Source: Stutzerimonas stutzeri
Lineage (GTDB): Bacteria; Pseudomonadota; Gammaproteobacteria; Pseudomonadales; Pseudomonadaceae
Assembly (NCBI RefSeq): GCF_024448985.1
Contig: NZ_JAMOII010000005.1
Coordinates: forward strand, 124,001 to 188,000
DNA: 64,000 nucleotides
Direction: 5' to 3'
This document shows, piece by piece, positions 4,887 to 63,718 of this stretch. Position 1 is the stretch's first letter; the number at the start of each line of letters is the position of its first letter. Below the pieces are notes generated by a model, which was given only the letters and a program-made list of their open reading frames with translations, was not told the origin of the DNA and searched no databases. Both the position numbers and the translations under genes were made by a program.

Positions 4887-6152
4887 TCAGGCCAATGCAG
4901 CCTGTCCAGTTCCGGTGGATGTGAGCGCCTGTGAGCCCAGCGCTTGCCCTACCACATCACCGATCATGTCCGCCGTAATGGCGCTCAGGGTCCAGCCCAG
5001 GTGGCCATGGCCAGTGTTGTAGAAGATGCAAGGCGACTTGCCGCGGCCGACCTTAGGCATCATGTTCGGCATCATCGGCCGCAGTCCGGCCCAGGGCACG
5101 ACGCTCTGAGTGCTGACGCCAGGGAAGCATTCGTTGACCCAGTCCACCAACGGACGGATACGATCCGCGCGGATGTCACGGTTGTAGCCGTTGAACTCAG
5201 CAGTCCCGGCGACGCGTAGACGGTTGTCGCCGAGGCGGCTGGTCACCAGCTTCGTTTCATCGTCCAGCAAGCTCACGGTCGGGGCCGCGGCACGGCTAGC
5301 CTCGTCGTTGAGGTTGACGGTGATCGAATAGCCTTTCACCGGATAGATGTTCACCCGGTCGCCCAGTTGCGCAGCCAGGGCCCGGCTTGCCGTACCGGCG
5401 CAGACGACCATGCCGTCGAATTCCAGGGTTTCGTCGCCGCCTGGCGTGCCGAGGATGACGCTAGCCTGGCTGCCGTTGGTTGCCACAGCTTTAACATCCT
5501 GGCCGTAACGGCATTCGACACCCAGGCGAATGGCCGCCGCCGCGAGGCCGTTGGTGAAACTGTGGATGTCGCCGGTGGAATCGCACTCTGTGTAATAGCC
5601 GCCGTAGTATTGCCCCGCCAGCGTTGGCTCGATGGCCCGCATCTCGTCCGGCGTCACGCTGCGGCGCGGCAGCCCACCTTGGGCCAGCAGTGTGGATACG
5701 GTGCCAGCGTGCTCGAAGCCAGCCTTGTCACGGTAAATGTGCAGGATGCCGGCCTTCTTCAAGTCGAAGTCGATGCCCTCTTCTTCGGCCCAGGCAAACA
5801 GATGCTCGCGGGCGGCGATGGCCAGGCGTGCGGTTTCGATGGTGTTCTGGCGGTATTGCCCAATGGAGCCGATGAACTCGGCGAACCAGGACAACTTGTG
5901 CCAGCTGGGCTTGGGGCTGACCAGCAATGGCGCGTCGCTCTTGAGCATCCATTTCATGCCCTTGAGGATCGTTGACCAGTGAGTCCAGACCTCGGCATTC
6001 GAGGCGGAGAGCTGCCCGCCGTTTGCAAAGGAGGTTTCCATTGCGGCGTAGCGGTGCTTTTCGAAAAGGGTCACGTCGAAACCGCGCTTAGCCAACGCAT
6101 AGGCGGTGGTGATGCCGGTAATACCGCCACCAATAACAGCGATTGTTTTCAT
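4887..6152 (-). CDS. dadA: D-amino acid dehydrogenase (DadA-type) under glycine riboswitch control
   Basis: FAD-dependent DadA-family enzyme (421 aa) that oxidises D-amino acids, or here perhaps glycine, to the 2-oxo acid and ammonia and passes electrons to the respiratory chain. The N-terminus has the dinucleotide-binding motif VIGGGITGITTAYALAKRG and an acidic ribose contact (LFEK). The C-terminus has GLRPMMPNMMPKVG and NTGHGHLGWTLS, typical of the family. The start is ATG 6152 (GGAG nine bases upstream), not the longer frame to 6173. The 5' leader carries a tandem glycine riboswitch, so expression should follow glycine. No dadX racemase or lrp-like regulator is adjacent, so this is probably a paralogue of the classic alanine-catabolic DadA; its true substrate is open. 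Confidence 0.9.
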   Translation of the reverse strand: MKTIAVIGGGITGITTAYALAKRGFDVTLFEKHRYAAMETSFANGGQLSASNAEVWTHWSTILKGMKWMLKSDAPLLVSPKPSWHKLSWFAEFIGSIGQYRQNTIETARLAIAAREHLFAWAEEEGIDFDLKKAGILHIYRDKAGFEHAGTVSTLLAQGGLPRRSVTPDEMRAIEPTLAGQYYGGYYTECDSTGDIHSFTNGLAAAAIRLGVECRYGQDVKAVATNGSQASVILGTPGGDETLEFDGMVVCAGTASRALAAQLGDRVNIYPVKGYSITVNLNDEASRAAAPTVSLLDDETKLVTSRLGDNRLRVAGTAEFNGYNRDIRADRIRPLVDWVNECFPGVSTQSVVPWAGLRPMMPNMMPKVGRGKSPCIFYNTGHGHLGWTLSAITADMIGDVVGQALGSQALTSTGTGQAALA

Positions 6153-6210
6153 TGTGTCGCTCCAGAACGTCAAGGGTCAGAGTCCGTCCGCGACATGCGG
6201 ATCAGACGCC

Positions 6211-6402
6211 CCCTCTGTTCTGGACCTGAGAGTTTCGCGAGCTCCAACGGGCAGAGTTCGCTTGCTCCTTCGGTGCGACGGGCGACGACACCCGACGGCT
6301 CTTCAGAGTCAAACCTGTGGAAGCGGTCCTTTTGCCTGAGAGTTTCCGGGGCGGTTGCTCCTTCGGCGCTGCTGGCGACGATGTCGCTGCAGTCTCTCCC
6401 GA
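6211..6402 (-). promoter_or_regulatory. Tandem glycine riboswitch in the dadA leader
   Basis: Two glycine aptamers in series on the minus strand. Aptamer 1 begins with GGGAGAGACTG (near 6400), then GCCGAAGGAGCAA (about 6355-6367) and AAACTCTCAGGCAAAAGGAC (about 6325-6344). Aptamer 2 begins with ACTCTGAAGAG (near 6308), then CACCGAAGGAGCAAGC (6260-6275) and AAACTCTCAGG (6225-6235), and closes with CAGAACAGAGGGGG. These are the conserved core strings of the gcvT-type element. The start codon is about 57 bases downstream. Whether it is an ON or OFF switch cannot be read with certainty. Confidence 0.93.
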
Positions 6403-6581
6403 GTCCACATACTTCATGTGCCGGACCGATCTAAATCGATCCAGTAATGCAGTCGGTGCTCAAGGTGCCAGAAAACGCCCCCTTTGCAACAGAAATTTTT
6501 CTGCCGTACGACTAAGGAACGATGCATTCGTCCGCTTCAGCGGCGCGCCATGAAACCATCACCCGCGTTACAGGCATGATT

Positions 6582-9500
6582 TCAGGAGCCGACCAGCGCT
6601 ATCAGCTGGGCGATATCGACGGGCTTGGTCAGGTGGACGTCGAACCCGGCCGCCAGCGCATTTTCCTTGTCGCTCGGCTGCCCCCAGCCGGTGATCGCTA
6701 CCAGCCGAACACGCGAATCCGACGAGCGGATCATCCGTGCGACCTCATCGCCACGCAGACCGGGCATACCGATATCCAATAACACCACTTCTGGCTCGAG
6801 CTGCCGATAGCGCTCGAAGGCTTCGACGCCGTCGAAGGCCAGATGTACGTCGTGGCCCTCCAGCCGGAGGACTTCGGCCATGGTTTCGGCGATGTCCCGG
6901 TTGTCGTCAGCGACCAGGATCCGTCGCGTACTTGCCGCTAGCCTGCCAGCTTCCGCAGGCTGCGCCTCGAGCTGCGGTGGGGCCAGCGCCGGCAGATTCA
7001 ACTCGAACTTCGCCCCTAGCCCTACCCCTTCGCTGCTGACGCGGATGTCGCCGCCATGAAGATTGGCCAGGCCCTTGGCCAGCGCCAGCCCGATGCCCAG
7101 ACCCGTATTGACCTGCGATTGGGGCATTGGCACCTGAGCGAATCGTTCGAAAATCAGTTGAAGATGTTCGCGAGCAATGCCCAAGCCGTTATCGGCCACC
7201 GACACCGTTGCCAACCCGTCTTTCAACGCGGCGCGCACGCGGATCTGCCCGCCGTGGGCGGTGAACTTGGCGGCGTTGTTCAGTAAATTGACGAGTATCT
7301 GCTCGAGCCGCAGCGGATCGGCTTCGAGCAGGATCGCTTCCGTCGGCTGCTCGATGAACAACTCATGTCGTTTCGCCTCGATTTTGGCCCGCGCAGTCTC
7401 AACGGCAGCTTCGACCACCGCTCGGAGATCCAGTGACTCCTTGCGCAGCACCAGCTTGCCGAGGGTGATGCGCGAGATATCGAACAGATCGTCCAGCAGC
7501 AGTGCCATGTGTCGTACCTGCCGCTCGATAATTTGCTGGCTGCGCAACTTCTGCGCTTCGGATGCAGAGGGAGAGCCGACAAGGCCAGCCGCCAGGCGAA
7601 TGGGCGCCAGCGGGTTACGCAGCTCATGCGCCAGTGTCGCGAGAAACTCATCCTTACGCCGATCAGCCTCCAGAATCGCCTGCTCCTGACGTTTGGATTT
7701 GGTCACATCAGCGAACCAGACGGCGAGCCTGTGCTCGAAAGGCGTGGCAATCAGGCGCACCCAACGCTCGCTGGCAAAGGCAGTGCTGCGCATCTCTACG
7801 TCATGCGGCTGCTGCTGCGTCGCCGCCGCCACCAGCGTGCCGATCGCTTGCGGATTGGCATTGGGTCCGAGCACTTCGCTGATGCGCCGCCCCGTCAGTT
7901 CTGCAACCGTTCCCTGCAAGCTCTCGGCACCGGTCGGATTGATGAAGTCCAGCCGGAAGTCATGTAACTCGCCCGCAGCATTGAGGTGCGGAGAAAGAAT
8001 GGCGAACGGAACGGTGGACGAATCCAGCGCCACCTGCAGTCGCCTCTCAAGCATGCCAGCCTTGCTCTGCGCGCGTGCCCGGTCGATGAATACCGCAGCA
8101 AGGCCAGCCGCGAGATCGGCCAGGCGAATCTCACGCTCGGTCGGGGGCCGCGTCTCTTTGAGTTGCACGGTCAAAGTGCCCAGGACACTGCCGTCGCTAT
8201 TGAGGATCGGTGTGCTGTGAACGGAGCAGAACCCTTCGATACGAGATACGGCGAGAAACTCGGTGAAACGTGGATCGGTTTCGGTATCCGTCACCACCAT
8301 TCGACAGCCTTCCTGGACCGCTGCGCCGCAAACGCCGAGTCCGGGCGCTACGTTGTCCATAAGCTCCAGCGAGGCCGGCGAAAAACCCTTCGACGCATGA
8401 ATGCGCAAGGGCGACTGACCATCGCTGAGCGCCAGCAGGCCGTGGGTTGCGCCGTGCAGCTCGCACAGCACGTCGATGATCGCCTGCAGCTGAGCATCGA
8501 GTGTCGGCAATTGCTGCAGACGGTTACCGAGTGTGTGCAGCGAATTCAGATCGCTTATTTGCTCGGTCAGGTCCTGCTGAGCCAGTTCCAGCTGCGACAA
8601 CATGCTGTCACGCTCGGCCTCGCTTGCCCTACGCGCCTGCGCAGCGGCGGCCAGTGCCTGCCCTACCTCGCGCACTTCTTCGATTTCGCTGTCCGGTACC
8701 TGTTGTAACGATTGGCCCTGACCGATGGCCTGCGCCGCCCCGCGCAACTGACGCATCGGCACGTTGATTCGCCGTGTCGCGAACAACGCTGCGGCGACGG
8801 CGAACATCAAGGACAGTAACAGTCCGCCGCCGTAGAGAGTGAAAGCCCGAGCAGCGCCAGCCTCCACCGCTTCGGTTGGCGCGGCTGTGGCGACGACCCA
8901 CCCGAACGGGTAAAGGCGGACGAACGCGGTGTAGGCCGGAACACCTTCCATCGTCTTGGACATACCGACGCCTTCGTCGGCGGGATTGACCACGAGCATG
9001 CGCTGGAGCGTCGGCGAAGCCGGCTGCCCCATAGTTTCCACGTGCCGTTGAGAGCGAGCGATGCGTATGCCGTTGGCATCGAACACCATGTTGATCCAGC
9101 CGGGTGCTAACCGGCGATCGCTGATGACTTGAACGATGGAATCAGGCTTTAGCACCGCAGTCAGGACATAGCGAGTGTTCCCCTCGATATCGACCGGCAC
9201 GCGTATGGGAATCCCCCACACCCCGCCGGGGCCCAACCCCATGTTGCCCACCTGCGGCTCACCCGTGCGCATCAGTTCAGCGAAGCTTCGAGGTTCGGCA
9301 ATTGCCTTGGATGCAGGCGGGTCGTGTCGCGAAATACGCCGGATGACCTCGCCTTCCGGTGTGATGATGAGCAGGGCATACCAGCTGGGCACCGAAGGCA
9401 ATACGCGGTGGACCATACCAGAGAAGCCGTCGATATCGTCATCATCGAGCATGGTCGATTGCGATAACGCCTGCAGCACGTCCAGTGACCGCCTGAGCTC

Positions 9501-63206: not shown

Positions 63207-63718
63207 AACGGCTTAGCGAAGTTTGATGATTTGTAGAAAAATGTAGTGCCATCAAATTTTCACTACAAAACAATTGACGAACCATTTTGGCCGGAGCATC
63301 ATGGCCCCGCTCCCGCTAATCAGGGGCCCTGCCACGGGCCTCCGGATCACACTCCGCCAACCAGCAGAGGCGATCCGTGACTGTACTGCCCACAAGGCGG
63401 ACTGACGAGGTTGCGACTGGAACGAGTCGTCCTGAGGGACGGGGAAGCGATTAACGCATCAGCTCGAAGATGTCAGTTCTGCTGAGTCGCCCGACGGCCT
63501 GAGCCGCTGTGTGCCGGAATGCCACGATCATTCCACAGCTAGCCGAATCTTTCTGCGGTCGTAACTGCACACCCTCCTCTCTTAGGTTCAATCCTCGTCC
63601 CGGTCGGTATTTCGACGCTCTGCCGCGTGTCGCCCGCATCATCATGCGATTAGCACGTAGGTTTCGGTGGGAACAGTCGGTGCTCAACCAAACACGAATT
63701 TTTTTGAAAGGATTGACC
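63207..63718. other. Long aceA upstream region
   Basis: A 512-base region with no credible gene. It begins with the inverted repeat TGTAGTG...CACTACA, continues with TTGACG (63274) and CATCAT (63297) as a weak promoter, and leaves a leader of about 400 bases before aceA. The short antisense frames at 63451-63720 and 63650-63985 lack initiation signals. Confidence 0.5.
63242..63267 (+). promoter_or_regulatory. Candidate operator upstream of aceA
   Basis: TGTAGTG (63242-63248) and CACTACA (63261-63267) are perfect 7-base inverted arms 12 bases apart; a further TTGTAG lies at 63231. TTGACG starts seven bases to the right. An RpiR-type regulator (RccR) controls aceA in pseudomonads and I recall TGTAGT-like sites for it, but this is from memory and unproven here. 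Confidence 0.5.

Follow-up and report, generated by a model that had tools for sequence, protein, structure and literature searches.

The gene described here lies on the minus strand of the window, by which we mean the whole 64,000 nucleotide stretch of the Stutzerimonas stutzeri genome that was analysed (C5:124001-188000). It encodes a FAD-dependent DadA-like dehydrogenase (4887..6152, minus strand) that we propose to be a glycine dehydrogenase. The open reading frame as listed runs from 6173 to 4887 with a TTG start, and the likely start codon is the ATG at 6152, with a GGAG that ends 7 bases ahead of it. The protein matches Pfam DAO at 233.4 bits and belongs to the family NF009074 (PRK12409), where it scores 733.3 bits against a curated cut-off of 494 and which NCBIfam labels as D-amino acid dehydrogenase. 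It shares the DAO superfamily with both canonical DadA and the ThiO glycine oxidase but falls under the cut-offs of the two, with 335.5 bits against 383 for PRK00711 and 136.5 bits against 250.8 for TIGR02352, and its identity to canonical DadA is 32-34%.

A tandem glycine riboswitch had been proposed upstream of this gene in the initial annotation, and a covariance search with Rfam RF00504 located two aptamers there. Aptamer 1 (6314..6411, minus strand) scores 63.1 bits and aptamer 2 (6205..6316, minus strand, corresponding to C5:130205-130316 in the genome) scores 48.6 bits, each spanning model positions 1-94 and each above the gathering score of 32. The two matches are adjacent on the same strand with an overlap of 3 bases and so form a tandem member of RF00504, for which glycine binding is predicted. 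In the window cmscan, a program that drops weaker overlapping matches of the same clan, shows aptamer 1 alone. The aptamer 2 match stops 52 bases ahead of the ATG, where 57 had been given initially. No RF00504 matches beyond these two were found by covariance search of the same Stutzerimonas genome.

A scan of the neighbourhood covered eight proteins between 862 and 14148, namely a beta-ketothiolase, an FKBP isomerase, a GST, a TetR protein, a hybrid histidine kinase, a trypsin-like/PDZ protease, a DUF2254 protein and a HAD hydrolase. Neither a racemase nor an Lrp-type regulator is among these eight, in line with the earlier reading that neither occurs nearby. The neighbourhoods of relatives vary in the scanned loci and include XdhC, LysR, a porin, a pseudouridine synthase and an aldehyde dehydrogenase. 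A functional partner gene was sought in the scanned loci and no constant neighbour was found, with a pair of TctC and M20 amidohydrolase genes present in some Burkholderiales loci only.

The association of switch and gene was then compared across genomes, with stricter filters under which weak aptamers may be lost wherever more than 40 genomes were searched. In a sample of 56 genomes of the genus, where an ortholog was defined by at least 84% identity, the tandem aptamers are present in 48 and the ortholog in 49, and a place-by-place comparison of the two lists puts the switch directly upstream of the ortholog in all 48 genomes with an intact 5' end. The gene start in the 49th (G019, 73% complete) is cut by a contig end, and the seven genomes that have no ortholog (G001, G007, G009, G016, G025, G044 and G052) have no switch either. 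Among the 369 genomes sampled from the class the switch occurs in 151 and an NF009074 match in 9 (8 over the cut-off), with the switch directly upstream in six of the eight full-length matches. The two full-length matches that lack it, at 518 and 433 bits, are distant relatives from small genomes, and a further genome (G408) holds gene fragments only and no switch; full-length matches in G278, which has the switch, and G086, which does not, read through one stop. The gene is present in 7 of 200 genomes in a sample of the order Burkholderiales around Cupriavidus and all seven have the switch directly upstream, although two genomes of the order sample are apparently also in the class sample (G531/G162 and G575/G278), as they have identical coordinates and scores.

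A set of fetched loci was also examined, 80 kept of the 186 relatives found. In the 330 bases ahead of the gene, motif counting identified both aptamer motifs twice in 74 of the 80. L087 has one copy, cut short by a contig end, upstream sequence is lacking for L114, and four loci (L082, L093, L108 and L113) have none. With Rfam, 50 of 55 tested loci gave an RF00504 match, the exceptions being L087 and the same four, and the second aptamer appears in its listing for 19 of the 50 positive loci because weaker same-clan overlaps are dropped, so that the tandem count is mainly motif-based. Where the switch is absent in these four loci an M20 amidohydrolase gene sits directly upstream in the same direction, next to the dehydrogenase (L108:748-2959; also L082, L093 and L113), and in a fifth locus (L103:466-2695) an M20 homolog with an upstream TctC-type receptor gene precedes the switch. 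A few Burkholderiales lineages therefore seem to have lost the switch. The four loci without it would suit a purely historical linkage, in which an old switch is of no present importance in Stutzerimonas, yet in all 48 testable genomes of the genus both aptamers still score above the cut-off and the pairing of the leader with the ribosome binding site, described below, is maintained through covariation, and we regard such a history as barely plausible. We favour a switch that still acts on the gene it precedes.

Most of the other glycine switches checked in relatives stand in front of glycine cleavage genes. From six gene-carrying Burkholderiales genomes seven more switch regions were taken, and the downstream frame encodes the glycine cleavage T-protein in five of them and the H-protein in one. 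For the seventh region (L129, G575:C1:1562200-1564300), the third glycine switch in its genome, the frame tried gave no Pfam match. Protein identity to the window's dehydrogenase is 82-83% in Cupriavidus and 74-77% in Nitrincola; the higher value for Cupriavidus led us to consider horizontal transfer of the switch-gene unit, an idea that was dropped as the tree backbone is open (12/36 inner branches).

A related enzyme has been named in Cupriavidus necator. The accessible text of PMC11879842 describes 'deletion of glycine oxidase (dadA6)', which improved neither growth rate nor yield, and that text contains no enzyme assay of DadA6; the glycine oxidase of C. necator is also said to add substantially to formate assimilation in the accessible part of PMC12421819. 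In order to connect DadA6 with the window gene we mapped the two dadA6 check primers of PMC11879842 to C. necator genomes. In each of two C. necator genomes the dadA6-rev primer matches upstream of the ortholog, at a distance of about 1.2 kb, with 1 and 2 mismatches respectively and no second match per genome at up to 2 mismatches. The dadA6-fwd primer has no match at either locus at up to 3 mismatches; when 60 Cupriavidus genomes were searched its one exact match fell at an unrelated position, and the 12 kb read there hold no relative of the gene. By the position of one primer, then, the DadA6 of strain H16 is likely the ortholog of the window gene, though from a different organism, the C. 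necator gene being 82-83% identical. No glycine riboswitch is mentioned with dadA6 in the accessible text of either paper, the sole 'riboswitch' in PMC11879842 being an engineered intron tool. The riboswitch class, its tandem form, its glycine-disposal targets and DadA6 as a glycine oxidase are already known. Tandem RF00504 aptamers ahead of gcvT or gcvTHP resemble those of the window in that two aptamers precede a glycine-disposal gene, whereas the window switch would control a single FAD dehydrogenase. A published link between a glycine riboswitch and a DadA-like or DadA6 enzyme was not found in the accessible portions of the literature searched, and the gene may be among the regulated genes listed in Additional file 5 of PMC3766115, which leaves priority for the link uncertain.

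The possibility of a second dadA in the genome had been raised initially, and a canonical copy does lie elsewhere (C2:425003-426196), scoring 707.9 bits with PRK00711, above the cut-off. In this region (C2:423029-426196; L034, L038) it adjoins a divergent Lrp/AsnC-type regulator, and no glycine switch was found at this locus (L034) by Rfam, in contrast to the window gene with its tandem aptamers. The suggestion of the initial annotation that the window enzyme acts on glycine gains support because the switch-gene linkage is near-invariant, because a canonical DadA is encoded separately in the genome, next to an Lrp-type regulator, and because DadA6, the probable ortholog, is named a glycine oxidase in published work. 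Downstream of the canonical dadA RidA-like and XRE-cupin-like reading frames were seen by eye, and another DAO-family gene is close by. Many genomes of the genus carry, besides a canonical-level copy, an extra DadA-like paralog of about 34-39% identity (for example G048:C1:2074931-2076127).

The active site was compared with enzymes of solved structure. Among PDB sequences the nearest to the window protein are glycine oxidases, with sarcosine oxidases also among the nearest, and an alignment-based profile search of PDB sequences gave no match at 1e-20. R358 of the window protein aligns with Arg302 of the Bacillus glycine oxidase, the residue that binds the substrate carboxylate, and Lys301 (K301) aligns with Tyr246 of that enzyme. 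Both K301 and R358 are invariant in an alignment of 27 sequences that includes canonical DadA, and since they are common to canonical DadA they do not discriminate between glycine and D-alanine. The predicted structure has a mean pLDDT of 77.1 and a pTM of 0.78, with low confidence at residues 36-46, 50-53 and 318-326, which lie around the active site according to the glycine oxidase alignment. Foldseek against the PDB places glycine and sarcosine oxidases at the top with a best TM-score (target length) of about 0.7-0.8, so that glycine oxidases are among the closest solved structures by fold as well as by sequence; the prediction supports the fold class, does not separate glycine from sarcosine oxidases and was given little weight.

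These shared residues, like the family's NCBIfam name and the identity to canonical DadA, are what one would expect if the protein were a general D-amino acid dehydrogenase and its glycine switch an indirect gauge of turnover of peptidoglycan or amino acids. Against this, canonical DadA is already encoded elsewhere beside an Lrp-type regulator and without a glycine switch, and the probable Cupriavidus ortholog has been published as a glycine oxidase, all of which makes a general D-amino acid dehydrogenase unlikely in our view. A dehydrogenase whose physiological substrate would be glycine remains the reading that we prefer.

How glycine might control this gene was addressed through the leader. 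In the predicted leader fold CAGGUCCAGAAC (6217..6228, minus strand), which is part of the core of aptamer 2, acts as an anti-Shine-Dalgarno strand in that positions 6228-6217 pair with the Shine-Dalgarno region GUUCUGGAGC (6159..6168, minus strand; positions 6168-6159). The two strands co-vary in relatives, with combinations such as CCAGAAC/GUUCUGG, CCAAGAC/GUCUUGG and CCGGAAAC/GUUUCCGG. RNAalifold on a MAFFT alignment of the leaders gave weak structure because that alignment does not follow the RNA structure, and duplexes between segments were tested in its place. Across 29 lineage representatives the cognate duplex has a mean of -12.11 kcal/mol versus -10.01 kcal/mol (sd 0.39) for permuted partners and none of 20000 permutations was as good, while 60 distinct combinations gave -12.55 versus -10.55 (sd 0.26; 0/5000), statistics that in both cases ignore the kinship between sequences. 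Four other leader segments served as a control and gave z = 0.7, -1.2, -0.7 and 0.1 versus -5.4 for the anti-Shine-Dalgarno strand. A duplex of at least 6 pairs is formed in 65 of 67 distinct leaders, covering at least 2 Shine-Dalgarno bases in 55 and fewer than 2 in 12. Comparison with dinucleotide shuffles of the Shine-Dalgarno segment gives a mean z of -1.97, and 4 of the 29 representatives lie above zero, that is worse than average.

A search of 6150-6650 for intrinsic terminator-like sites found none, and according to PMC12452182 the glycine riboswitch platforms of Pseudomonadota are predominantly translational. From the sequence the platform looks translational and of the ON type, and the covariation predicts that it is coupled to the aptamer. 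As the glycine-bound aptamer needs the anti-Shine-Dalgarno strand, binding and blocking of the Shine-Dalgarno region should be mutually exclusive, which predicts an ON switch. A variable-sequence hairpin at about 6207-6182 on the minus strand, between aptamer 2 and the Shine-Dalgarno region, was seen by eye to be predicted in most leaders and is probably part of the platform.

The opposite direction was also considered, namely an OFF switch on an enzyme whose product is glycine, formed for instance from sarcosine, or a partner of glycine. Glycine riboswitches can activate or repress, repression being tied to transporters according to PMC6944388, and the solved structures nearest to the protein in both sequence and fold include sarcosine oxidases. 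The place of the anti-Shine-Dalgarno strand within the aptamer 2 core argues against an OFF switch for the reason just given, as do the glycine cleavage genes behind most of the other switches checked in relatives, and we judge this alternative very unlikely.

We propose instead that the tandem aptamers sense glycine and regulate one gene at the level of translation. At low glycine, translation would be blocked by pairing of the 3' strand of aptamer 2 (CAGGUCCAGAAC) with the Shine-Dalgarno region, and when glycine is bound aptamer 2 would take up this strand, free the ribosome site and allow the enzyme to be made. The enzyme is related to canonical DadA but distinct from it, and would convert glycine with FAD to glyoxylate and ammonia, passing the electrons probably to the respiratory chain, and the glyoxylate could enter malate. 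Taken as a whole, a glycine-induced translational ON switch on a FAD glycine dehydrogenase that makes glyoxylate is in our estimation probable. With somewhat less assurance, though still with good likelihood, the PRK12409 family may be read as a glycine-induced glycine dehydrogenase that forms a unit of riboswitch and gene throughout beta- and gammaproteobacteria. It would be a glycine-disposal branch next to the cleavage system, and in its covarying translational ON platform the aptamer 2 core would serve as the anti-Shine-Dalgarno strand. Re-annotation of PRK12409 is a probable consequence: the family would carry the name of the wrong substrate, a correction of the annotation is suggested and the family would gain a physiological role defined by its ligand. 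Glycine riboswitches would likewise gain a target besides cleavage and transport genes, and the proposal is relevant to the engineering of glycine pathways in Cupriavidus, in which DadA6 is regarded as a sink for glycine.

The metabolic setting was surveyed in the same genomes. The cleavage system gene gcvP is present in 55 of the 56 genomes of the genus, including the one studied here, the exception being the incomplete G019. In the genome under study gcvP is present, yet the sole glycine switch found is the one at the dehydrogenase. This genome also has two genes for malate synthase G, which would give glyoxylate an outlet into malate. Elsewhere in the window Rfam matched SrbA (sRNA regulator of biofilms A) at 63319-63553 on the plus strand, with 125.3 bits against a gathering score of 69.
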